Source: Achromobacter seleniivolatilans (GTDB lineage Bacteria > Pseudomonadota > Gammaproteobacteria > Burkholderiales > Burkholderiaceae_B). From it: a stretch of DNA of 64,000 nucleotides. The stretch is taken from positions 372,001 through 436,000 of the forward strand of contig NZ_CP132976.1 of the NCBI RefSeq assembly GCF_030864005.1. Direction: 5' to 3'. Shown here one piece after another: positions 3,430-48,750 of the stretch. A program made the translations under genes and the position numbers. The stretch's first letter is position 1; each line of letters opens with the position of its first letter. Under the pieces are notes generated by a model that made no database searches, was not told the DNA's origin, and saw nothing but the letters and a program-made list of their open reading frames with translations.

Positions 3430-4275
3430 TTAGAACTTGATTTCGGGCGGGAACGCCTCGGGCGGCACGTTGGCCAGCTTTTGCATATTGCCCAGGATCA
3501 CGCCGCGCACTTCATCCTTGGCGCGAATCTCGGTCAGCCAGGCGTTGACGGACTTTTGCAGAGAGTCGTCAGCTTCTTTGCGCAGGCCGATGCTGACCGG
3601 GGCGGTCTCAACCGGGGTGGGGATGCTCATCGTGCCAATGCCCGGGCGCTTTTCCAGCAAGGGCTTGGCCAGCAGCACCACCAGGATCTGGCAGTCGGCG
3701 CGGCCCGAGGACAAGGCCAGCGTGGCGGCGCCCGAGTTTTCCAGGCGGGTCACATTGGCGTTTTGCAGCACGCGGGTGGCCAACTGGTCGTGGCTTGAGC
3801 CCACATCCACCACTACCCGGGTTTCGGGCGTGTTCAGCTCGGCCCACGATTTGCCGGCAAAACCCTTGCGGCAGACGGTGGTGTAGGTGTTGTTGAACAA
3901 GGTGTCCGAGAAGTTCACGACTTCTTTGCGCGCCGGGGTGGGCGCCATGCCGAACATCAAGTCGATCTTGTTGGTCTGCACATCCAGCACCGAATTGCCC
4001 CAGGTGGTTTCCAGGTATTCGGTCTTCACGCCCAGACGGGCGGCAAACATCTCGGCAAAGTCCGGACCAAAGCCTTCCCACTTGCCAGTATTCAGATTCT
4101 TGTTGAAGTAGGGGATGGCGCCAGCGATTGCGCCAATGCGGATCGTCTTGGTGCGCATGATGCGCTCCATGGCGGTTTCGTTGGCGGACTGGGCTTGCGA
4201 TACGGCCGGCAGCCCCAAGCTGGCCAGACTTGCCACGGCCAGGACGGAGGCCAGGAAATTACGTTTTGTGCTCAT
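3430..4275 (-). CDS. Amino-acid ABC transporter periplasmic substrate-binding protein
   Basis: 281 residues from the ATG at 4275, chosen because GAGGAGAAG lies at the right distance upstream and the next residues form a clean signal peptide (MSTKRNFLASVLAVASLASLG, cleavage after SQAQ). A longer frame to 4365 runs into the preceding gene and is rejected. The mature part is a family 3 solute-binding fold: KTIRIGAI at the first strand and TPARKEVVNFSD, which holds the arginine that usually grips the amino-acid carboxylate. The ligand cannot be specified. Neighbours suggest an amino acid that is oxidised or racemised by the flanking gene products. Confidence 0.88.
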   Translation of the reverse strand: MSTKRNFLASVLAVASLASLGLPAVSQAQSANETAMERIMRTKTIRIGAIAGAIPYFNKNLNTGKWEGFGPDFAEMFAARLGVKTEYLETTWGNSVLDVQTNKIDLMFGMAPTPARKEVVNFSDTLFNNTYTTVCRKGFAGKSWAELNTPETRVVVDVGSSHDQLATRVLQNANVTRLENSGAATLALSSGRADCQILVVLLAKPLLEKRPGIGTMSIPTPVETAPVSIGLRKEADDSLQKSVNAWLTEIRAKDEVRGVILGNMQKLANVPPEAFPPEIKF

Positions 4276-4309
4276 CGACTTCTCCTCAAAAGTGTCAGGT
4301 GGGGCGGCG

Positions 4310-5557
4310 CTAGATGAAACGGCTGGGACGGAACGCGCGGTGCTGTTCCGGGTCTGCGTTTTCACTCATAAGCTCGCCTAGTATCTTCGCCGTTCCTGGC
4401 GCGGTGCTGAATCCAATATGCTGGTGGCCCAGCGCCAGCCACAGGCCGGGCGCGCGCGGCGCCTGACCGATCATCGGCCGGCTGTCGGGCAGCGTGGGAC
4501 GCCGTCCCAGCCAGGCGGCCGGGTCCAGGCGGTCGCCCAGCGGAAATGCTTCGCGGGCGCGGGCTTCGGACAGATCAAGCTGAACCGGCCGGGCAGGGGC
4601 GTCGCAATCATCCAGCTCTACGCCGGTTGTGAGCCGCAGGCCGCGCGCCATGGGCGACAGCACGTAGCCGCCGCCGGTGTCATAAATAGGGCGCGAGATG
4701 GTGGCGCCGTTCAACCCGGAATAGTGCATGTGATAACCGCGCTCAAATGCCATGGGCAGATCGATGCCAGTGGTCTTCAGCAGGCTTTTCGACCAGGGGC
4801 CAAGCGCAACGACCAGTTGATCTGCCGTCAGTGATTCGGAAGCTTCCGAACCTTGCACGGTCCAGCCTTGGCCGTCACGGCGGATGCTGGTGGCGGTCAA
4901 ATGCTTGAACGCGCCGCCCGAACGGCGGAACAAGTCGGCATAGGCGGCGACCACCGCGTGCGGATCATCGACCGAATATGAGCCCTTGATCCACAGTGCG
5001 CGATGGAAGATAGGCGCTAGCGCAGGTTCCATCTCTGCCAGTTCGGCGGGGCTCAGGGTTTGGGTTTGGACCTGATGCTGCGCATAGGTCTGGCGCGCCA
5101 AAGCGCTGCCATTCCAGGCTTGTTCCGACCGGTACAGGAACACCCAGCCGGTATCGCGCAGCCGATGGCGGACGCCTGCGGCGTCCATCAGTTTCAGGTG
5201 TTCTGGCGCTGACAGCCGGATCAGGCTATCCAGCGCCTGCACGGTTTCCTTAAAGACAGACGGCCGCGCGTTAAGCAGGAAACGCGTCGCCCAGCCCAGG
5301 TTCGCAGCCAGGAATTTCGGCCGGTAGCGGAATTGGACAGTGTTGTTTTTCAGCAGGCGGGGCAGTTGGCCCCACAGGCCCGGATGGTTGAACGGCATCA
5401 ACGAGCTGCGCGCCAGCACGCCGGCGTTGCCCATTGACGTTTCCATCCCCGGATACTGGCGGTCTACCAACGTGACCGAGGCGCCCCGGCGCAACAGCTC
5501 CAGCGCGCAGCAAACACCCACAATGCCCGCGCCCAGGACGATGACGTGCTTTCCCAT
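4310..5557 (-). CDS. D-amino-acid dehydrogenase-like FAD oxidoreductase (DadA family)
   Basis: 415 residues. The N-terminal dinucleotide-binding motif VIVLGAGIVGVCCALELLRRGA with acidic LVDR at the end of strand 2 marks the DAO/DadA fold. Other family features are METSMGNAGVLARSS, and WLGRRPTLPDSRPMIGQAP followed by LWLALGHQHIGFSTAPGTA near the C-terminus. DadA enzymes deaminate D-amino acids to 2-oxo acids and pass electrons to the respiratory chain at the inner membrane. It is the first gene of the five-gene minus-strand operon ending at 1178; the gap to the binding protein is 34 bp. Glycine/sarcosine-type oxidase specificity cannot be excluded. Confidence 0.85.
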   Translation of the reverse strand: MGKHVIVLGAGIVGVCCALELLRRGASVTLVDRQYPGMETSMGNAGVLARSSLMPFNHPGLWGQLPRLLKNNTVQFRYRPKFLAANLGWATRFLLNARPSVFKETVQALDSLIRLSAPEHLKLMDAAGVRHRLRDTGWVFLYRSEQAWNGSALARQTYAQHQVQTQTLSPAELAEMEPALAPIFHRALWIKGSYSVDDPHAVVAAYADLFRRSGGAFKHLTATSIRRDGQGWTVQGSEASESLTADQLVVALGPWSKSLLKTTGIDLPMAFERGYHMHYSGLNGATISRPIYDTGGGYVLSPMARGLRLTTGVELDDCDAPARPVQLDLSEARAREAFPLGDRLDPAAWLGRRPTLPDSRPMIGQAPRAPGLWLALGHQHIGFSTAPGTAKILGELMSENADPEQHRAFRPSRFI

Positions 5558-37263: not shown

Positions 37264-38727
37264 TTACGGGCGCGCGCTTTCCAGTGCCTGCAAGTCGTCC
37301 TCTGCCGCTGCACGTCCCAGCGCGGCCAGGCACTCGTCCAGGGGCGGAATGGTTTGCGCTAAAGCATCTACTGCGGCAGCATCCACTTTCGCCAAAGAAG
37401 GAATTTCGGCCAGCACGCGCACATCGCCAAAGCGTTCAATGGCTTCCTTGTTGCCTGCCGACAGCGGCCCGCTCATGATGACGCCCAGCACGGGAATGCC
37501 ACGGCGTTTCAGCGCTTCAAGACTGAGCAATGTGTGATTGATGGTACCCAGGCCGCTGCGGGCGGCGAGCACGACGGGCATGTCCAGCCGGGCGATCAGA
37601 TCGATCATCATGTGCGTGTCGTCGATGGGCACGTACAGGCCGCCCGCGCCTTCCACGATCAACGGCGCCTGTGTCACGGGCGGGACGATGCTGGTGGCGT
37701 CGACGACGGTGTCTTCCAGCGTGGCGGCAGCCCAGGGCGACAGCGGCGCCTGCAACACGTAGGCGGGCAGGTGCAGGCGTTCAGAAGGCAGCCGAGCCAG
37801 TTGCGCGACGGTTTCCGTGTCGCCCGGCTCTTCTGACACGCCGGTTTGCACCGGTTTCCAATAGTCGGCGTTCCAGGCGCGCGCCAGGATGGCGGACACC
37901 AGGGTCTTGCCTATGCCGGTGTCAGTGCCGGTCACGAAAACTCCGGCGGGGCGTTGCATCGATTTTTTCCACATACCGTAGGCCAGGTGATACGTCACCG
38001 TGGCTCCTTGTTCGTCAAATGCCGTCAACACGCGGCGCAGTTGCGCGGCGGAGAGCGGCGGGCGCCCAGGTGCAGGCGTGGTTGCCCCTATGCCTTTCAG
38101 ACCCTTCAAAAAATTCAGGCCGTCAGGATGATTTTGTATCAGCCGTTCGCTGCGCACGCTACCGTTCAGATTGACCATAGCCGGACGGATGGCGGTGCGC
38201 GGCGGGTAGTGTGGCGTGGCGGCCACCAGGCAGGCGGCTTCGTGGGCGGCCTGCCATTCCTTGAAGGTGCCCTCGGCTAGCGTGGCAATGGCCAGATAAC
38301 CGCCGGGGGCCAGCAGCTCGGCAAGGCGGCCCAGGCCGGTGTTCAGATCAGAAAACCACTGCACGGCCAGACTGGAGCAGATCAGGTCGTACTGGCCGGT
38401 CAGCGCCTGGGGCTGTTCGCCATCCAGCAAGGCGTAGCGCGCGGTGCCGGGCAGGGCGGGTCCGCGCTGCGCCGCGGCGAGCATGCCGGGCGCAATATCG
38501 GTCACGGTCCAGTCGGCTGCGCCCAATTGGCGTGCCAAAGCTTGCGTCAGCAGCCCGGTACCGCAACCGATTTCCAGAATGCGGGGACGCGGGGGCAGAG
38601 GCAGTTGCGCGATATCACTGGCCAGCCGTTCGGCCGTAATGCGCTGAATGGGCGCATGGTCTTCATAGCGGCCAGCGGCTGCGCCGAAGCGGGCGCCGAC
38701 CTGATCATTGCGGAATGCTTGCGTCAT
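37264..38727 (-). CDS. bioCD: Fused malonyl-ACP O-methyltransferase / dethiobiotin synthetase (BioC-BioD)
   Basis: 487 residues from the ATG at 38727. Residues 1-256 are BioC: FGAAAGRYEDHAPIQRITAERL, then SAM motif RILEIGCGTGLLTQALARQLG and CSSLAVQWFSD. Residues 257-487 are a full BioD with P-loop GVFVTGTDTGIGKTLVSA, KPVQTGV and LIVEGAGGLYVPI. The ATG for the BioD part (37959) survives internally, preceded by a run of six A (minus strand, 37963-37968). Two steps of the biotin pathway are thus joined in one frame. A sequencing slip in the A6 run is an alternative explanation. Last gene of the bioF-bioH-bioCD operon. Confidence 0.88.
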   Translation of the reverse strand: MTQAFRNDQVGARFGAAAGRYEDHAPIQRITAERLASDIAQLPLPPRPRILEIGCGTGLLTQALARQLGAADWTVTDIAPGMLAAAQRGPALPGTARYALLDGEQPQALTGQYDLICSSLAVQWFSDLNTGLGRLAELLAPGGYLAIATLAEGTFKEWQAAHEAACLVAATPHYPPRTAIRPAMVNLNGSVRSERLIQNHPDGLNFLKGLKGIGATTPAPGRPPLSAAQLRRVLTAFDEQGATVTYHLAYGMWKKSMQRPAGVFVTGTDTGIGKTLVSAILARAWNADYWKPVQTGVSEEPGDTETVAQLARLPSERLHLPAYVLQAPLSPWAAATLEDTVVDATSIVPPVTQAPLIVEGAGGLYVPIDDTHMMIDLIARLDMPVVLAARSGLGTINHTLLSLEALKRRGIPVLGVIMSGPLSAGNKEAIERFGDVRVLAEIPSLAKVDAAAVDALAQTIPPLDECLAALGRAAAEDDLQALESARP

Positions 38728-38750
38728 GGGGCAGGAAAACAACTCGCGCC

Positions 38751-39455
38751 TTACGTCGCGGTAAGACGGGAGAGAAAGGCTGCAATATGGGCGGCGCACC
38801 AGGGCGCATCCGTAGCGGGCAACAGGTGGCCGCCGTGGTCATGCCATCGCCACTCATCGGCGGGCCGTTCGCCAAAGGCGGCCTGAGTCATCGTGGCGGG
38901 CACGATCGGGTCATCACGGCCAGCCAGGATCAGCAGGGGAACGGATAGCGCTGCAAGGGCGGCGCGCTGGTCTTCGTCTCGAAGGGCTTGCAGGTCTTGT
39001 GCCAGCTGCGGCACTCGGGGGGCGTCAAACGCCGCATCGTGTCCGCAGCGCTGGCGAAAGTCTTGCAGCACTGCGTTGGCGTCTGCCGCCAGCCGTTTGG
39101 CCATGCGGTCGAGCATGCGGACGGGGACGCCCGCTTCGAAGTCCGGCCCGGCGCCAAAACGCGGGAACCCGTTGATGGACACCATGCCGATGCAACCCGC
39201 TGGCAGGCCGCGCAACAGCTTCAGCACGCCTAGCGAGTGGCCGATGGCAATGACCGGGCCGTCGGGCGGGATCTCAGACCCGGACTCTGCGGCAGTGTTG
39301 TGGGCCGGATTTTGCGATTGCCCAAAGTAACCGGCGTCGGTTGCGGCTTGCGGCCAGTCGCGCAGTTGGGCACGCAGCGGCGCCCAAAACGAGGCATCAA
39401 AGGCCCAGCCGTGGACGAACAGCAGCGTGGGGCGCGGGGCGTTCGCTGAGGTCAT
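38751..39455 (-). CDS. bioH: BioH-like alpha/beta hydrolase (pimeloyl-ACP methyl ester esterase role)
   Basis: 234 residues. HGWAFDASFWAPL oxyanion region, nucleophile elbow GHSLGV (Ser near 81), Asp in LAGRDDPIVPA near 184, His in DHGGHLLPATDAP near 210, giving a full triad. The position between bioF and bioCD supports pimeloyl-ACP methyl ester hydrolysis rather than a general esterase. Its start overlaps the bioF stop by 4 bp (39452-39455). Sequence is divergent from E. coli BioH, so the name rests mainly on context. Confidence 0.75.
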   Translation of the reverse strand: MTSANAPRPTLLFVHGWAFDASFWAPLRAQLRDWPQAATDAGYFGQSQNPAHNTAAESGSEIPPDGPVIAIGHSLGVLKLLRGLPAGCIGMVSINGFPRFGAGPDFEAGVPVRMLDRMAKRLAADANAVLQDFRQRCGHDAAFDAPRVPQLAQDLQALRDEDQRAALAALSVPLLILAGRDDPIVPATMTQAAFGERPADEWRWHDHGGHLLPATDAPWCAAHIAAFLSRLTAT

Positions 39456-40666
39456 GCAAGCACCGCCGCAAAGCCTTCGATCAATTGCGATACGTCGGCG
39501 TCGCGATGGGCGGCGCTTAGCGTCACCCGCAAGCGGCTGGTGCCTGCGGGCACGGTGGGCGGCCGGATTGCCACGGCCAAAAGGCCCCGGCATTCCAACT
39601 CTGCCGCCAAGGCCAGGGCGCGGGCTTCGTCGCCCACGATGGCCGGCACGATTTGCGTGGACGAGGCGCCGGTATCCAGCCCCATGTTTTGCAGCGCGGT
39701 GCGCAACCGGTCACCGGCTGCGGCCAGGCGCGCGCGCTCGTGGTCCAGCGTGGGAACCAGGTCCAGCGCGGCGTCCATGGCGCCGAGCACCGCGGGGGGC
39801 AGCGCCGTGGTGTAGATGAAGCCGGAACACGTGTTGACCAGGTAGTCGCACAAGGCGCGTGACCCGGCGACGTAGGCGCCAAATCCGCCCAGCGCCTTGC
39901 TGAAGGTGCCCATGGCCAGGTCGATGCGGCCGGGCGCGAGCCCCGCCAGCCCCATACCGTTCGGGCCCAGCACGCCGGTGGCGTGCGCTTCGTCCAGATA
40001 GACAAACGCCTGGTAGCGGTCGGCCAGATCGGCGAGCCGTGCGACGTCCGTGCGATCACCGTCCATGCTGAACACACTTTCCGTGATGATGAAGCGAGCG
40101 ACGGGCTTACCGGCGACGGGCTTACCGGCCACGGCATCACTCTCCGTTTCCGTCCGGCCAGCCAGCAGGCTTTCCAGATGATCCAAATCGTTATGCCGGA
40201 AACGTATCTGTTTGATGCCCGCCGCCTGGCAGCCATGGTGCAAGCTGGCGTGGTTGAGCTTGTCGGCGTATAGCTCGACCGCGCCCTGGCTGGCTGCTGC
40301 GCGCAGCAGGGCGGGCAGCACGGCTGCGTTGGCTTGCCAGCCCGAGGCCAGCAGCAAGGCGGCTTCGGTGCCCTTCAAGCGGGCCAGCTTGGCCTCCACT
40401 TGTTCGTGCAAGTCCAGATTGCCGCAAACCAGGCGCGACGCCTGGGCGCCCGCGCCATGCCGGGCTGCCCATTCGCGGGCGCGCTCGATCAGCAGCGGGT
40501 GTTTGGACAGGCCAAGATAGTCGTTGCTGGAGAAGTTCAGCATCGGCACGCCGTTGACCACAATGCGCCCGGGCGGGGCGGCAGTGGCCGTGCGCAGGCG
40601 GCGGCGAACACGGCGGTCGTCGGCAAGCGCCAACTCGGAAGAAAACAGCGAATCCAGCTTTGACAT
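39452..40666 (-). CDS. bioF: 8-amino-7-oxononanoate synthase
   Basis: 404 residues from the ATG at 40666. Alpha-oxoamine synthase motifs: LNFSSNDYLGLSKHP, the PLP Lys in LAMGTFSKALGGFGAYVAGS, VYLDEAHATGVLGPNGMG. Condenses pimeloyl-ACP with L-alanine. A short loop (about residues 180-192) contains AGKPVAGKPVA, from a 15-bp tandem duplication (40099-40128) in frame. Heads the minus-strand bio operon; bioA diverges from it across 140 bp. Confidence 0.95.
   Translation of the reverse strand: MSKLDSLFSSELALADDRRVRRRLRTATAAPPGRIVVNGVPMLNFSSNDYLGLSKHPLLIERAREWAARHGAGAQASRLVCGNLDLHEQVEAKLARLKGTEAALLLASGWQANAAVLPALLRAAASQGAVELYADKLNHASLHHGCQAAGIKQIRFRHNDLDHLESLLAGRTETESDAVAGKPVAGKPVARFIITESVFSMDGDRTDVARLADLADRYQAFVYLDEAHATGVLGPNGMGLAGLAPGRIDLAMGTFSKALGGFGAYVAGSRALCDYLVNTCSGFIYTTALPPAVLGAMDAALDLVPTLDHERARLAAAGDRLRTALQNMGLDTGASSTQIVPAIVGDEARALALAAELECRGLLAVAIRPPTVPAGTSRLRVTLSAAHRDADVSQLIEGFAAVLA
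40099..40128. repeat. 15-bp perfect tandem duplication inside bioF
   Basis: Two adjacent copies of CGACGGGCTTACCGG, adding five residues (AGKPV) in a surface loop without breaking the frame. A candidate polymorphic site between strains. Confidence 0.9.
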
Positions 40667-42101: not shown

Positions 42102-42133
42102 CCAGACGCCTTGATCCAGATCAAGGCGTCTGG
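42102..42133 (+). promoter_or_regulatory. Perfect FNR/ANR box inside a 14-bp-arm palindrome
   Basis: TTGAT-CCAG-ATCAA (42111-42124) is an exact FNR consensus. The symmetry extends outward to perfect 14-bp arms (CCAGACGCCTTGAT and ATCAAGGCGTCTGG, 42102-42115 and 42120-42133). The box centre is 41.5 bases before the ATG at 42159, the class II activating distance if transcription began at that ATG. The same hairpin sits 24 bases after bioA and could end that transcript. Confidence 0.85.
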
Positions 42134-42158: not shown

Positions 42159-43151
42159 ATGCGAGCAAAATCGATCTTCGCCGTCCCGGCCAGTCTGCCC
42201 GATGCCGACCGCCAGCAGCGCCGCCATGCCTTGGTGCGCCTGTCGCTGGCGTGGCTCGCAATGATGCAGGTCATGATGTTCGCGTGGCCGGGCTATCTGC
42301 GGCATGACAGCATGCCGGTCGATGCGCTCGAAACGCTGGACTGGGCCATTGTGCTGATGAACTGGGCGAGTTTTGCGCTGACCGTCCCGGTTGTGCTGTA
42401 TTCGGCGTGGCCCATCTGGCGTCATGCTGGCGACAATCTGCGCCACGGCCGTGCTGGCATGGACGTGCCGGTGGCGCTAGGCATCGTCGCCGCTTTCATT
42501 CCCAGTGTTCACGCCACCTATACCGGCCGCGGCGAGGTCTATTTCGATTCCGTCACGATGTTCGTGGCGTTCCTGCTGACTGCCCGCTACCTGGAACTGT
42601 GTGCCCGCCAATCGTTTGGCGGTGCTGCAGGCGGCGCGCGCCATGAGCGCGTTGAGGCCCAGCGCCTGGATCTGGGCGCGCGGGCGGACCGGCTGGCATC
42701 GCGGTTTGTGATGGTTCAAGTGGCGTTGGCCCTGGCTGCCGCTGCCGCCTGGGCGTATATCGACCCCGCGCACAGCATCCCCGTGATGGTCGCGCTGCTG
42801 GTAATGAGCTGTCCTTGCGCGATGTCGATGGCCGTGCCCACCGCGATGGCATCGGCGCACTCGGCGCTGGCCGCGCATCCGTCCATGCCGGATTCGGCGC
42901 TGGACGAACTTCTGGCCCAAGCCCGTCACAAGGCCCGCCAGAATCTCTATGGTTCGCTGATCTGGCATTTGCTGATGACGCCCTTGGCGCTGGTTGGCTG
43001 GGTCACGCCTTGGCTGGCCGCAATCACGATGCTGGTGTCGTCCTTGGCCGTGGCCTATAACTCGTGGCGCCTGTGCCGCCGCGATTGGTCTGGTGACGTG
43101 ACGGCAAACGCCTCGCGCATGTCCCCGGGCACGCTGGACGCCGCGCAATGA
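42159..43151 (+). CDS. CcoI/FixI-like copper P-type ATPase without catalytic domains (membrane part only)
   Basis: 330 residues. The membrane core of a P1B ATPase is kept: TM1-TM4 (about 27-148, with GMDVPVALGIVAAF), TM5, TM6 with the metal-binding CPC (218-220, MSCPCAMSMAVPTAM), and TM7-TM8 (GWVTPWLAAITMLVSSLAVAYN). The N-terminal metal-binding domain, the TGE actuator domain and the DKTGT/nucleotide-binding domains are all missing; short linkers replace them (150-175 and 240-258). Normal CcoI is about 750-800 residues. It cannot hydrolyse ATP, yet the frame is intact, overlaps ccoS by 4 bp and sits behind an FNR box. It may be a membrane copper site for cbb3 assembly. Confidence 0.85.
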   Translation: MRAKSIFAVPASLPDADRQQRRHALVRLSLAWLAMMQVMMFAWPGYLRHDSMPVDALETLDWAIVLMNWASFALTVPVVLYSAWPIWRHAGDNLRHGRAGMDVPVALGIVAAFIPSVHATYTGRGEVYFDSVTMFVAFLLTARYLELCARQSFGGAAGGARHERVEAQRLDLGARADRLASRFVMVQVALALAAAAAWAYIDPAHSIPVMVALLVMSCPCAMSMAVPTAMASAHSALAAHPSMPDSALDELLAQARHKARQNLYGSLIWHLLMTPLALVGWVTPWLAAITMLVSSLAVAYNSWRLCRRDWSGDVTANASRMSPGTLDAAQ

Positions 43152-43309
43152 CCATTCTGTATCTGCTGCTGCCGCTATCCCTGTTGTTTGTGCTGGTTAT
43201 TGGCATATCGCTGTGGTGGGCTGTGTTCAACGGCCAGTACGACGATACCGATAACGCTGGCACGGCCATCCTGCGCGACGACGACAGCGGACCCGCCAAC
43301 CGCGGCTGA
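43148..43309 (+). CDS. ccoS: cbb3 oxidase maturation protein CcoS
   Basis: 53 residues, too short for most gene callers. One N-terminal helix (ILYLLLPLSLLFVLVIGISLWWAV), then the CcoS signature FNGQYDDTDNAGTAILRDD. ATG overlaps the CcoI-like stop by 4 bp. CcoS is needed for haem/copper insertion into cbb3 oxidase in other bacteria. The usual ccoIS pairing is kept, although the ATPase is reduced. Confidence 0.88.
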   Translation: MTILYLLLPLSLLFVLVIGISLWWAVFNGQYDDTDNAGTAILRDDDSGPANRG

Positions 43310-43438: not shown

Positions 43439-43452
43439 TTGATCCATATCAA
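43439..43452 (+). promoter_or_regulatory. Perfect FNR/ANR box before ccoN
   Basis: TTGAT-CCAT-ATCAA, exact consensus. Centre at 43445.5 predicts a start near 43487 for a class II site; the ccoN ATG is at 43519 with GGGGGAAGGG as ribosome site. Gives low-oxygen activation of the oxidase. Confidence 0.88.
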
Positions 43453-43518: not shown

Positions 43519-45006
43519 ATGAACGATTGCGCCGCAATCGCAAGCAAGGCCGATACCTTCAACTACAAGATCGTGAGGCAGTTCGCGCTCATGACGGTGG
43601 TTTGGGGCATTGTCGGCATGGCTGTGGGCGTTTTTATCGCCGCGCAGCTGATTTGGCCTCAGTTGAACTTTGACACCGCATGGCTGAGCTACGGCCGCCT
43701 GCGTCCGCTGCACACCAACGCGGTGATTTTTGCCTTTGGCGGCAGCGCGCTGTTCACGACGTCATATTACGTAGTCCAACGCACCTGTCAGGCGCGTTTG
43801 TTCTGTGGCCCCTTGGCCGCATTCACGTTCTGGGGCTGGCAAGTTGTCATCGTTGCCGCCGCGATCACCTTGCCCATGGGTTTCACCAGCAGCAAGGAAT
43901 ACGCCGAACTTGAATGGCCTATCGACATCCTGATCACGCTGGTCTGGGTGGCGTACGCCATCGTGTTCTTCGGCACGATCATCAAGCGCCGGTCCAAGCA
44001 CATCTACGTGGCCAACTGGTTCTTTGGCTCGTACATCCTGACCATCGCCATTCTGCACATCTTCAATAACATCGAAATGCCTGTTTCGATGTGGAAGTCG
44101 TACTCGGCATATGCCGGCGTGCAAGATGCCATGGTGCAGTGGTGGTATGGCCACAACGCAGTGGGCTTCTTCCTGACCACCAGCTTCCTGGGCATGATGT
44201 ATTACTTCGTGCCCAAGCAAGCCGGCCGTCCCATCTATTCGTATCGTCTGTCCATCGTCCACTTCTGGGCGCTGGCCTTCACGTACATGTGGGCAGGTCC
44301 GCACCATCTGCTGTATACCTCGCTGCCCGACTGGACCCAGTCGCTGGGCATGACGTTCTCGCTGATTCTGCTTGCGCCTTCGTGGGGCGGCATGATCAAC
44401 GGCATCATGACTTTGCAAGGCGCCTGGTACAAGCTGCGCACTGACCCGATCCTGAAGTTCATGGTTACGGCGCTGTCGTTCTACGGTATGTCGACCTTCG
44501 AAGGTTCGATGATGTCGATCCGCACGGTCAACGCGCTGTCGCACTACACGGACTGGACCATCGGCCACGTGCACTCCGGTGCGCTGGGCTGGGTTGCCAT
44601 GATCTCCTTCGGTTCGCTGTATTACCTGATCCCGCGCCTGTATGGCCGTGAAAAGATGCACAGCGTGAAGGCTATCGAACTGCACTTCTGGATCGCGACC
44701 ATCGGCGTGGTGTTGTACATCGCCGCCATGTGGATTGCCGGCGTGCAGCAAGGTCTGATGTGGCGTGATACCGCCTCTGACGGCACCTTGGTCTACAGCT
44801 TTGTCGAGGAACTGAAGACGCGTGTTCCGTACTACCTGATTCGTTTGCTGGGTGGCACGTTGTTCCTGTCGGGCGTGTTCGTCATGGCCTGGAACGTGTG
44901 GATGACGGTGCGCGGTGCGCAGCCGGTCAACCCCGCGATTCCGCAAGACGATCCCCACGCCGCTCGCTCGCTGCCCGCTGCGGCCGCAGAGCCGGTCACT
45001 GTTTGA
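43519..45006 (+). CDS. ccoN: cbb3-type cytochrome c oxidase subunit I
   Basis: 495 residues from ATG 43519 (GTG 43516 possible). Twelve helices. Haem-copper ligands are seen in [32 protein letters not shown] (Cu-B His), [18 protein letters not shown] (His pair) and [17 protein letters not shown]. This is the catalytic oxygen-reducing subunit with high oxygen affinity. First gene of ccoNOQP behind the FNR box at 43439. Confidence 0.97.
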
Positions 45007-45016
45007 CGAGGACATC

Positions 45017-45769
45017 ATGGCCAACAAGAATCCTGGTTTCTTTTCGCACCAGACGCTTGAGAAGAACATCGGCTGGATGATCATCGCCAGCATCCTGGTG
45101 GTGTCCTTCGCAGGCCTGGTGCAGATCGTTCCGCTGTTCTTCCAGCACAGCACGACCCAGCCGGTGGCTGGGGTGGAACCCTACAGCCCGTTGCGTTTGA
45201 TGGGCCGCGACGTCTACATCCGTGAAGGCTGCGTGGGTTGCCACTCGCAACAAATCCGCGTGCTGGCTGCGGAAGTGCAACGTTACGGTCCCTACTCGAC
45301 GGCGGCGGAATCGGTGTTTGATCATCCATTCCTGTGGGGTTCCAAGCGCACGGGTCCTGACCTGGCGCGCGTTGGCGAGCGTTATTCCGATGACTGGCAC
45401 CGCATCCACTTGCGTGATCCGCGCAAGGTGGTGCCCGAATCGAATATGCCCGCCTACCCCTGGCTGCAAAAGACGGTCATTACCGGTGAAAACGTAGCGG
45501 ACCGCATGCGCGCCCTGCGCATGCTGGGTGTGCCGTATACCGACAAAGACATCGCTGACGCGCCGAAGGCCATCGAAGGCAAGACGGAAGAGGACGCGCT
45601 GGTTGCCTACCTGCAACATCTGGGTGTCGGCGTGCGCAAGGCGCAATTGGCCAAGCAGGCTGAAGAAGCCAAAAAGGCCGAAGAAGCCAAGAAGGCAAAC
45701 CAAGCTGTCACTTCGCCTGCCGCGCAATCCGCTGTGCAGCCCGCCGCGCAAGCGGCAACGGGAGGCTGA
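45017..45769 (+). CDS. ccoO: cbb3-type cytochrome c oxidase subunit II (monohaem)
   Basis: 250 residues. One anchor helix ([20 protein letters not shown]), then haem c site [12 protein letters not shown] and axial-Met region [12 protein letters not shown]. Typical CcoO is about 200-205 residues; here the C-terminus is extended by a Lys/Glu/Ala repeat ([13 protein letters not shown]) and an Ala/Gln tail, probably flexible in the periplasm. 10 bases after ccoN. Confidence 0.96.
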
Positions 45770-45770
45770 T

Positions 45771-45944
45771 ATGGGCTACCTGAGCGCAATCGTTACCGCC
45801 ATTTCGATGGCAACCTTTTTCGGCATTGTCTGGTGGGCTTGCTCGCGCGGCCGCCAGAGCGCCAATCGCGAATCGGCCATGTTGCCGTTCGCACTGCCCG
45901 ATGAGTTCGGTCAGGGACAACAAGATGGAGCGAATCGGTCATGA
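45771..45944 (+). CDS. ccoQ: cbb3 oxidase subunit CcoQ
   Basis: 57 residues. One helix (LSAIVTAISMATFFGIVWWA) then RGRQSANRESAMLPFALPDE, the FixQ/CcoQ pattern. ATG one base after the ccoO stop; its stop overlaps the ccoP ATG (45941-45944). Small stabilising subunit of the oxidase. Confidence 0.92.
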   Translation: MGYLSAIVTAISMATFFGIVWWACSRGRQSANRESAMLPFALPDEFGQGQQDGANRS

Positions 45945-46918
45945 GCGATTTCGTTAATGGCTTCTGGGGGTATTTCATCTCGGTCGTGGCCGTGGGTGGC
46001 GTGGTGTGGTGCGTGTGGCTGCTGTATACACAGCGCCGCTGGCTCACCAACAAGCCCGCCAACGGCAAGGTCGAGGACACGGGCCACGTCTGGGACGGCG
46101 ACCTGACCGAGCTGAACAACCCGGTCCCCACCTGGTGGACCTGGATGTACCTGCTGGCCTGCGTGTTTGCGTTGGGCTACCTGTTCTTCATGCCGGGTCT
46201 GGGTTCGTACAAGGGCCAGCTGGGTTACAGCAGCACCGAGGAAGTGGCCAAGCATCAAGCCCAAATGGCCGAAGCCGTGCGTCCGATCTACGCGCGGTTC
46301 GAGACCATGACTGTGCCGCAGATCGCTGAAGATCCGGGCGCCCGTGAAATCGGCCAACGCCTGTTCTTGAACACGTGTGCGCAGTGCCATGGCTCGGATG
46401 CCAAGGGCGGCTTCAGCTTTCCCAACTTGACGGACGGTGACTGGTTGCACGGCGGTACGCCGGAAATCATCATGAAGACCATCAAGGAAGGGCGTCACGG
46501 CGTGATGCCGCCCTGGAAAGCCGCCATTGACGCCAAGACGGCTGGCGACATTGCACAGTACGTGCGTTCGCTGTCGGGCCTGACGACCGACCCGGTTCGA
46601 GTGTTCCGCGGCAAGCGCGAGTTCGGCAACTTCTGCGTCGCCTGTCACGGTGTGGACGGCAAGGGCAACCAGATGCTGGGCGCGCCCAACCTGACGGACG
46701 ATGTGTGGCTGTATGGCAGTTCGGAAGCATCGATCGTGAAGACGATTCTTGATGGCCGTGACAACCGCATGCCGGCGCACGATCACATCCTGAGCCCGGA
46801 GCAGATCAAGATTCTGACGGCCTGGGTCTGGGGTTTGTCGAACAAGCCGGGTACGGCAGCCGGGGGCGACAGCACCGCTACCCCCGCAGCCACTCCTGCA
46901 GCCACCGCTGCGAAGTAA
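45941..46918 (+). CDS. ccoP: cbb3-type cytochrome c oxidase subunit III (dihaem)
   Basis: 325 residues. Two N-terminal helices (about 5-27 and 62-84) with the CcoP signature GHVWDGDLTELNNPVPTWWTWMY between them. Two haem c motifs: CAQCHGSDAKGG near 148 and CVACHGVDGKGN near 234. Tail Thr/Pro/Ala-rich. Passes electrons from cytochrome c or bc1 to CcoO/CcoN. Completes ccoNOQP. Confidence 0.96.
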   Translation: MSDFVNGFWGYFISVVAVGGVVWCVWLLYTQRRWLTNKPANGKVEDTGHVWDGDLTELNNPVPTWWTWMYLLACVFALGYLFFMPGLGSYKGQLGYSSTEEVAKHQAQMAEAVRPIYARFETMTVPQIAEDPGAREIGQRLFLNTCAQCHGSDAKGGFSFPNLTDGDWLHGGTPEIIMKTIKEGRHGVMPPWKAAIDAKTAGDIAQYVRSLSGLTTDPVRVFRGKREFGNFCVACHGVDGKGNQMLGAPNLTDDVWLYGSSEASIVKTILDGRDNRMPAHDHILSPEQIKILTAWVWGLSNKPGTAAGGDSTATPAATPAATAAK

Positions 46919-46994: not shown

Positions 46995-48485
46995 ATGGAA
47001 GAAGGGTCAACCGCAAGCGTCAGCAGTTCGCCTGGCGGTGACCCGCCGCCTTGGCGGCCCCATACGCGTCCGCCGCGTCCCGGGCAAGAGACTCTGGAAC
47101 AAACGCTGGAGGACGTGCGCAGCAAGATTTATCCGCGATCCGTCAGCGGCATTTTTGCCCGCTGGCGCATCGCTTTTGTTTTTATCACCCAGCTGATTTT
47201 CTACGGTCTGCCCTGGCTGCAATGGAACGGGCGTCAGGCGGTGCTGTTTGACCTGGGCGCGCGCAAGTTTTACCTGTTCGGCATGGTGTTGTGGCCGCAG
47301 GACGTGGTGTATCTGGCTGTGCTGCTGGTCATCTCGGCGCTGGCGCTGTTTCTGTTTACTGCCGTGGCAGGGCGGCTGTTCTGTGGTTACGCCTGTCCGC
47401 AAACGGTCTACACGGAAATCTTCATGTGGATCGAGCGCAAGGTTGAAGGCGACCGCATCGCGCGTATCCGTCTGGATGAATCGCCATGGACATGGCGCAA
47501 AGCGCGCCTGAAACTCACCAAGCATTTTCTGTGGATCGCGCTGGCCTGGTGGACAGGCTCCACCTTCATCGGGTATTTCGCCCCGATCCGCGAACTGGGC
47601 CATGAGTTGTTCACGCTGCAACTGGGTCCGTGGCAATGGTTCTGGATGCTGTTCTACGGTTTCGCCACCTGGGGCAACGCTGGCTTCATGCGGGAATCCG
47701 TGTGCAAGTACATGTGCCCGTATGCTCGCTTCCAAAGCGTCATGGTAGATCCCGATACCTTTGTCGTCACCTATGACAAGCGCCGTGGCGATCCGCGCGG
47801 CGGGCGTTCGCGCAAAGTGGACCACAAGGCGGCGGGCTTGGGTGACTGCGTGGATTGCAGCTTGTGTGTGCAGGTCTGCCCGACCGGTATCGATATTCGC
47901 GACGGCCTGCAATACATGTGCATAGGCTGCGGCGCCTGTATCGACGCCTGCGACCAGGTCATGGGCAAGATGCAATATGACCCGGGTCTGATCCGCTATA
48001 CCTCTGACCGGGCGATACAGGAAGGTCTGAACGGGAAAAGCGCGCTATCGCACCTGCTGCGCCCGCGCGTGCTGATCTACGGCACCATGATCCTGCTGCT
48101 GGCTGTGGCGTTCGTGTGGTCGCTTGCGGTACGCAATCCCTTGCGCGTGGACGTCATCCGCGATCGGGGCGCGCTGGGCCGTGAAGTGGCGGGTGGCCAG
48201 ATTGAAAACGTCTACCGCTTGCAGATCATCAACACGTCGGATACGCCAATGCGGCTGCGCTTGTCGGCCGACGGCATACCGGGGCTCGCCGTGCTGGCCG
48301 GTCAACAGGGGTCTGATGTGGTCGAAGTGCAAGCTGCTGCCAACAAGCTCCTGCCCATGGTGATCCGCGCCCCCGCTGGCGTTGAACCCGGCGCCCATCC
48401 CATCACGCTGCGCGCGCGCGGCCAAGACGGTGAAAACCGGTCCATCGAGACCGACGAACCCGCCAGTTTCTACGTGCCTGATTGA
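46995..48485 (+). CDS. ccoG: Cytochrome c oxidase accessory protein CcoG (polyferredoxin)
   Basis: 496 residues. Five or so helices, the CGYACPQTVYTEIFMWIERK motif, and two ferredoxin clusters near 294-330: CVDCSLCVQVCPTGIDIRDG and CIGCGACIDACDQVMGKM. C-terminal immunoglobulin-like domain (FixG C-term), ending SFYVPD. Thought to reduce copper for cbb3 maturation. Starts about 77 bases after ccoP, with the N-terminal 30 residues Pro/Gly-rich. Confidence 0.95.
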   Translation: MEEGSTASVSSSPGGDPPPWRPHTRPPRPGQETLEQTLEDVRSKIYPRSVSGIFARWRIAFVFITQLIFYGLPWLQWNGRQAVLFDLGARKFYLFGMVLWPQDVVYLAVLLVISALALFLFTAVAGRLFCGYACPQTVYTEIFMWIERKVEGDRIARIRLDESPWTWRKARLKLTKHFLWIALAWWTGSTFIGYFAPIRELGHELFTLQLGPWQWFWMLFYGFATWGNAGFMRESVCKYMCPYARFQSVMVDPDTFVVTYDKRRGDPRGGRSRKVDHKAAGLGDCVDCSLCVQVCPTGIDIRDGLQYMCIGCGACIDACDQVMGKMQYDPGLIRYTSDRAIQEGLNGKSALSHLLRPRVLIYGTMILLLAVAFVWSLAVRNPLRVDVIRDRGALGREVAGGQIENVYRLQIINTSDTPMRLRLSADGIPGLAVLAGQQGSDVVEVQAAANKLLPMVIRAPAGVEPGAHPITLRARGQDGENRSIETDEPASFYVPD

Positions 48486-48504
48486 GCACATAAAGGATAT
48501 CGAC

Positions 48505-48750
48505 ATGAACATTGCTCAGCCCGCCCCGATCGTGAAACCCTGGTATCGCGAGCCCTGGCCATGGATTCTCATGGCCGGCCCGTTCGTGGCCATGATTGGC
48601 TGCTTCATCACCATCTATTTCGCGTACACCCAGTTCAGCACCCAGCCGATACTGGACGGTGTGGTCAAACGCGGTTTGGTGATTGAACAGACCGCGCCCA
48701 AGGCTGCCGACGGGGCCGCTGCCGCGAGCGCCGTGCGCGTCAATCCTTAA
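48505..48750 (+). CDS. Short FixH-family protein
   Basis: 81 residues. PWYREPWPWILMAGPFVAMIGCFITIYFAY matches the FixH/CcoH opening with one helix. The rest is only about 35 residues, so the periplasmic FixH domain (normally about 100 residues) is absent. 19 bases after ccoG. It may keep only the helix that contacts the oxidase assembly complex. Confidence 0.8.
   Translation: MNIAQPAPIVKPWYREPWPWILMAGPFVAMIGCFITIYFAYTQFSTQPILDGVVKRGLVIEQTAPKAADGAAAASAVRVNP

Follow-up and report, generated by a model that had tools for sequence, protein, structure and literature searches.

We analysed a 64,000-nucleotide stretch of the Achromobacter seleniivolatilans genome (RefSeq assembly GCF_030864005.1, contig NZ_CP132976.1, positions 372,001 to 436,000; hereafter the window), in which a shortened ccoI gene lies beside the genes of a cbb3-type oxidase. 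The gene occupies positions 42159..43151 of the forward strand; it begins with ATG at 42159, ends with a stop codon at 43149–43151 and encodes 330 amino acids that correspond to the membrane domain of CcoI, as judged from the open reading frame, alignment with full CcoI and an AlphaFold2 model. With the full CcoI of Cupriavidus (L105, 855 residues) as reference, three regions have no counterpart in the short protein in the alignment: the N-terminal metal-binding region (residues 1 to ∼198), the actuator domain (residues ∼343–444) and the phosphorylation/nucleotide (P/N) domain (residues 542–792). The same alignment revealed in the short protein no TGE actuator domain (∼100 residues), no DKTGT phosphorylation motif with its P/N domain (∼250 residues) and no ATP site. 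An N-terminal CxxC motif is likewise absent from the short CcoI, which has only ∼20 residues ahead of its first membrane segment.

All eight membrane segments are retained. The model adopts the eight-helix fold of the P1B-ATPase membrane domain (predicted local distance difference test score 89; structural comparison by VIA-align), and the closest sequences of solved structure belong to copper P1B ATPases. Profile matches are correspondingly partial: only positions 102–180 of the 181 in Pfam PF00122 (E1-E2 ATPase) are matched, and NCBIfam TIGR01511 (copper ATPase) reaches 86 bits, with the cut-off at 397. A linker at residues ∼151–175 (42609..42683, +) replaces the actuator domain and another at residues ∼235–260 (42861..42938, +) replaces the P/N domain in the alignment, and both are strongly variable among short forms. 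An insert without counterpart in full CcoI spans residues 56–62 between helices 1 and 2 (codons 57–63 around it lie at 42327..42347, +), and its Leu60 and Asp61 are fixed. By descent and fold, the short CcoI is a P1B membrane domain that lacks the catalytic features tested for CcoI ATPases. These results bear out the initial annotation, made from the sequence of the window, which had described a CcoI-like ATPase stripped of its catalytic domains with eight helices and the CPC site kept in frame; the N-terminal region, actuator and P/N domain are all missing, and linkers stand at the actuator and P/N places.

We then mapped the residues of the short CcoI onto LpCopA by sequence alignment and counted them over 88 distinct short forms and 23 full forms. 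The CPC motif (residues 218–220, LpCopA Cys382–Cys384; 42810..42818, +) lies in the core membrane helix TM-MBS1 and is present in all 88 short forms, Cys being invariant at both places. The second copper site is represented by Met291 and Ser294–Ser295 (LpCopA Met717 and Ser720–721; 43029..43043, +), with Met conserved in 88/88 and Ser in 86/88. At the canonical Tyr–Asn pair (LpCopA 688–689), however, the short protein has Trp269–His270 (42963..42968, +), an alteration on which the initial annotation did not remark. Short forms have Trp in 86 of 88 cases (Phe in the other two) and His in every case, whereas full CcoI has Tyr in 22/23 and Asn in 23/23. At sixteen positions, a residue fixed in at least 95% of short forms occurs in fewer than 10% of full forms; W32, N68, W87, P115, Q187, W269 and H270 are among them. 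A paper on Caulobacter FixI lists as its two copper sites residues of the same kinds as those mapped here onto LpCopA.

The acidic residues along the membrane path bear on whether copper could simply flow through. All 88 short forms have Asp or Glu at the exit side (LpCopA Glu189). The two entry acids on the cytosolic side are less strictly kept, with departures in several separate genera (the first is Ala in 9/88, the second Asn in 26/88). This pattern could fit a passive copper conduit or importer, in which Cu(I), uncoupled from ATP, would follow its electrochemical gradient inward or laterally. The entry acids are a weak hint, because six of the 23 full forms also depart from Glu/Asp there; the His that always occupies the place of the canonical Asn points to tighter binding and not to flow; and an open copper leak would presumably be harmful. 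We regard a conduit as unlikely. On account of the same Asn-to-His change, a bound-copper relay seems more probable than a channel.

The short form is widespread in the window's family, from which the main sample of 151 genomes was drawn, and is not confined to this assembly, an outcome that the initial annotation had named as one that would refute its reading: it is present in 102/151 genomes, full CcoI in 12/151 and both in none. A ccoN match above the cut-off accompanies it in 99 of the 102 short-form genomes, and accompanies full CcoI in 11 of 12. The three short-form genomes that lack a match have either contig ends (G098 and G093) or a frameshifted ccoN (G102), and the full-CcoI genome without one (G051) has its locus at a contig start. 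Three genomes (G069, G106 and G142) have ccoN but neither CcoI form, and each contig ends at the place where the gene is expected. Neither form is carried by 33 family genomes, one of which (G060) has a short fragment at a contig start; this genome and G092, in which the gene is interrupted, were counted in neither the 102 nor the 12. For the alignments, 106 loci were first classed as short, from which three partial ones (L136, L120 and L100) and L125, a full CcoI truncated at a contig end, were dropped; this leaves 102 loci, 88 of them distinct, with frames of 309–363 residues. The full set comprised 24 loci minus L106 (cut), and L138 was excluded as another ATPase. One genome may occur in two collections.

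Among the best 80 loci in a collection of named genomes, short forms take the first 67 places, and one of these copies is truncated at a contig end. Most of the carriers belong to the Alcaligenaceae (Achromobacter, Bordetella, Pusillimonas, Paenalcaligenes, Advenella, Taylorella, Pelistega, Sheuella and relatives). Another 13 loci belong to Ralstonia, Cupriavidus and one Burkholderiales genome and have full-length frames, with cco genes alongside in 12 of the 13; the remaining locus (L106) is a short contig. Outside the family, no short form was recognised among the matches listed for 399 genomes of the order and 369 of the class. Of six short-looking frames checked there, five end at contig ends (G598 by coordinates alone) and one appears to be a full CcoI with a frameshift; this check left out other listed frames of ∼525–640 residues. 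No plasmid record covers 80% of the short CcoI query.

Two family genomes show damage at the locus. In G092 (L120), an element of the IS481 family splits the short ccoI and ccoN is disrupted too, a linked decay of both genes. According to one paper, ccoN has premature stops in all 14 Bordetella pertussis strains that it examined, and G092 is presumably a strain of this kind. In G102 (L135), an intact short ccoI adjoins the frameshifted ccoN, which is either a pseudogene or a sequencing error.

Phylogenetic analyses indicate that the short form has a single origin. The 87 proteins of the ccoN tree come from 71 short loci (out of 102) and 16 full ones, each row being a single tblastn piece of more than 400 residues with no stop and no identical twin. 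The 71 short-form rows make up one clade with support 100/98. Ralstonia and Cupriavidus fall outside it, as do ten members of the family that have full CcoI; eight of these ten (L125 and L128–L134) branch with more distant operons, and some such branches are long. L126 (G026, genus g26), also a family member with full CcoI, has a rather different ccoN while its congeners G086, G108, G127 and G144 have the short form; to judge from the tree, it may have acquired its cco operon by transfer. A second tree, built by a quick method from the membrane columns that both CcoI forms share (111 rows, some of them on long branches), also unites the 88 short forms in one clade. The stem of the short forms carries 0.99 changes per column in this tree versus 0.12 in the ccoN tree. 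The predicted history is one of a single domain loss, followed by a burst of change and then by constraint.

Selection on the gene is purifying. The ratio of nonsynonymous to synonymous substitution rates (dN/dS) of the window gene is 0.04–0.16 against 18 Achromobacter-like sequences, and all 171 pairs of the 19 Achromobacter-like short genes yield 0.04–0.27 (median 0.14). The missing catalytic motifs of P-type ATPases might be taken to mean that the short ccoI is a pseudogene or an assembly error. This is very hard to reconcile with its retention in 102/151 genomes as one clade, with purifying selection and with frames of conserved length, to which the interrupted copy in G092 is the one exception, and we consider it highly improbable. 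An assembly or frameshift artefact in particular is ruled out by the same short frame in many genomes. The suggestion in the initial annotation that the gene had been repurposed and had not decayed is well supported by the single clade, the retention without full CcoI, purifying selection, fixed residues and synteny.

We also inspected other ATPases and copper chaperones. In the window's own genome, the only one so searched, an actuator model matches the short ccoI and six frames of 684–969 residues, all six codings of DKTGT lie at the six full P-type ATPases, and the searches revealed no stand-alone actuator or phosphorylation domain. Nor does this genome appear to have a full CcoI at another place: the five full ATPases that were compared all share ≤34% identity with full CcoI. 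The sixth (L006) is presumably KdpB-like. One of the full ATPases (L001, 768 residues) is CopA-like, with CPC, Tyr–Asn, M..SS, one CxxC and the catalytic motifs, and a copper-ATPase match over the TIGR01511 cut-off occurs in all 22 short-form genomes tested. A pump acting in trans is therefore conceivable, in which CopA or another full P-type ATPase would lend its cytosolic domains to the short CcoI in a hetero-oligomer. Yet no separate actuator or phosphorylation domain was found in the window's genome, CopA already has a membrane domain of its own, and the linkers that replace the lost domains vary strongly, so that we consider such a pump quite improbable.

Genes for Sco and PCuAC are present in all 30 genomes tested (22 short, 8 full). 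Periplasmic chaperones could thus bring copper to the CuB site of the oxidase while the membrane domain serves as a copper-independent scaffold that docks CcoN, CcoS, CcoG or Sco; such docking would agree with the position of some newly fixed residues away from the known copper site, e.g. N68, W87 and, in the insert, Leu60–Asp61. A pure scaffold would have no need of the CPC Cys pair, Met291 and His270, which are invariant in 88/88 distinct sequences, and we give this explanation a small but appreciable chance.

Taken together, we slightly favour the reading that the short CcoI is an ATP-independent, membrane-embedded, copper-binding assembly factor that replaces CcoI for CuB insertion in the cbb3 oxidase. 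In the proposed sequence of events, the metal-binding, actuator and P/N domains would have disappeared in an ancestor of the clade, and the leftover membrane domain would have been rebuilt and retained. Cys218, Cys220, His270 and Met291 would form an intramembrane site that takes up Cu(I), from which the ion would follow an affinity gradient to the CuB of CcoN, either directly or with the help of Sco/PCuAC and with no hydrolysis of ATP. That the protein binds copper, does not pump it, moves it in this direction, is required and hands it over to CcoN we infer from these comparisons. Loading could take place from the cytosol, because ccoG is retained nearby, or from the periplasm, because the cytosolic entry acids are loosened while the exit-side acid is kept. 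A role as a cbb3 assembly factor appears well supported by gene context. The more specific role of a copper chaperone or channel for cbb3 assembly, put forward in the initial annotation, appears partly supported, in that it fits the retained CPC, Met and Ser residues and the co-occurrence with ccoN. More tentatively, and with somewhat less than an even chance, a P-type ATPase membrane domain may have undergone a single conversion into a free-standing, ATP-independent copper insertase whose rewired Cys2–His–Met site loads CuB within the membrane.

Published work bears on this proposal; the following statements rest on PMC8475189 and, for CcoG, Bordetella and Caulobacter FixI, on papers among PMC13038864, PMC10903467, PMC5829832, PMC11257404 and PMC12617631. 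CcoI is reported to be essential for the cbb3 oxidase in the species named in PMC8475189. In Rhodobacter capsulatus, the ccoG product is a cupric reductase, and loss of ccoI is not repaired by CopA (PMC8475189). When copper was added in the absence of CcoI, earlier work saw no rescue and one assay ∼30% activity, and copper fails to restore cbb3 in Caulobacter without FixI. Such findings suggest that CcoI does more than supply periplasmic copper.

Several observations weigh against an ATP-independent copper-binding assembly factor. Copper movement by R. capsulatus CcoI needs both CPC and ATP hydrolysis (PMC8475189), so loss of the ATPase could mean that copper transport was lost. With Trp–His in place of Tyr–Asn, the metal site could also have been lost or altered in kind. 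Constraint on the short gene is weaker than on ccoN, for which the median dN/dS is 0.066 (91 pairs, 14 loci) against 0.14 for the short gene in a different set of pairs, yet the short gene is far from neutral. G102 retains an intact short gene beside its frameshifted ccoN. Also, according to the sources named above, a B. bronchiseptica strain with cco as sole oxidase could not be made, although its ccoN transcripts are the most abundant of its oxidase loci; its authors suspect missing translation, assembly or cofactors for cco. Other minor oxidases were likewise unable to support a sole-oxidase strain, and the cco-only failure may reflect poor assembly in air.

Comparison with known systems places the short CcoI closest to CcoI/FixI/CopA2. 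Like these, it lies beside ccoS–ccoNOP–ccoG, has the eight-helix membrane domain with MMQVMM in the first helix and keeps the CPC, Met and Ser residues of the copper site; common descent is clear. Unlike them, it has 330 instead of about 850 residues, it lacks the N-terminal CxxC, the TGE actuator and the DKTGT/GDG domains, and Tyr–Asn is replaced by Trp–His. CopA (CopA1), the copper-detoxifying P1B ATPase (structures 4bbj and 3rfu), is represented separately in the same genome by the full-length CopA-like gene L001. The proposed ATP-free copper hand-over for oxidase assembly resembles that of Sco/SenC and PCuAC/PccA as a role only; these are periplasmic proteins unrelated to the short CcoI, and their genes are present in addition to it. 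CcoA, a copper importer of the major facilitator superfamily (PMC5829832), is also a membrane protein that serves the copper supply of cbb3 and is not an ATPase, but it belongs to a different family.

A family that keeps cbb3 genes, mostly with the membrane half of CcoI only, is a poor fit to a simple pump model and suggests that copper hand-over to the cbb3 oxidase is possible without a pump. The short-form family offers a natural experiment on the failure of both CopA and added copper to substitute properly for CcoI. If the proposed role is correct, the part of CcoI that CopA cannot replace would be the membrane domain acting as a hand-over module, and insertion would be separable from pumping. 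For Bordetella and Achromobacter, this suggests a copper route to the low-oxygen oxidase. Neither such a route nor any description of the short CcoI was found in the open-access literature searched, from which preprints and most subscription journals were absent. To our knowledge, the short CcoI would be the first descendant of a P-type ATPase that is conserved although it has lost every cytosolic domain.

In the window, the short ccoI is the first of a series of forward-strand cco genes and is preceded by a gene that we take to be bioA. A sequence with an exact match to the FNR consensus (TTGATCCAGATCAA, 42111..42124, +) lies 48 bp ahead of its start codon. The FNR promoter noted in the initial annotation is therefore present here and largely, though not universally, conserved: in 65 named short-form loci with 200 bp upstream, the box is exact in 48 and has one mismatch in 11 more, and 47 of the 48 exact boxes lie 48–52 bp before the chosen start. 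ccoS (FixS; 43148..43309, +) overlaps the end of the short ccoI through ATGA, as had also been noted, but this overlap is not general, since the short gene ends in ATGA in only 20 of 66 named short-form loci examined. A second FNR box (TTGATCCATATCAA, 43439..43452, +) precedes ccoN, which encodes the catalytic subunit of the cbb3 oxidase (43519..45006, +; start picked by eye). It is followed on the same strand by open reading frames that, from their position and order, we take to be ccoO (45017..45769; start picked by eye), ccoP (45941..46918) and ccoG (46995..48485), and then by a small CcoH/FixH-like protein (48502..48750, +; PF05751, 24.7 bits, cut-off 23). A link between CcoH loss and the domain loss was ruled out, as relatives with full CcoI have a similar small CcoH-like protein.

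The downstream cco genes found in the 67 named short-form loci share one order, with some contigs ending early, and ccoS was not matched in two of these loci (L084 and L103). Different arrangements occur elsewhere. At L122 (G077, 4007–5200), the short ccoI and ccoS are turned round with respect to ccoN, giving two divergent blocks. At L129, L130 and L131 (G063, G065 and G030), full CcoI lies downstream of ccoP and not upstream of ccoN, in a more distant type of cco operon.

Also, the reverse strand of the window contains at 37264–38799 a single frame of 511 residues with a methyltransferase and an AAA_26 domain. We take these domains to be BioC-like and BioD-like, and the frame is probably a BioC–BioD fusion. 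It overlaps an alpha/beta hydrolase gene at 38751–39593, which is presumably BioH-like.
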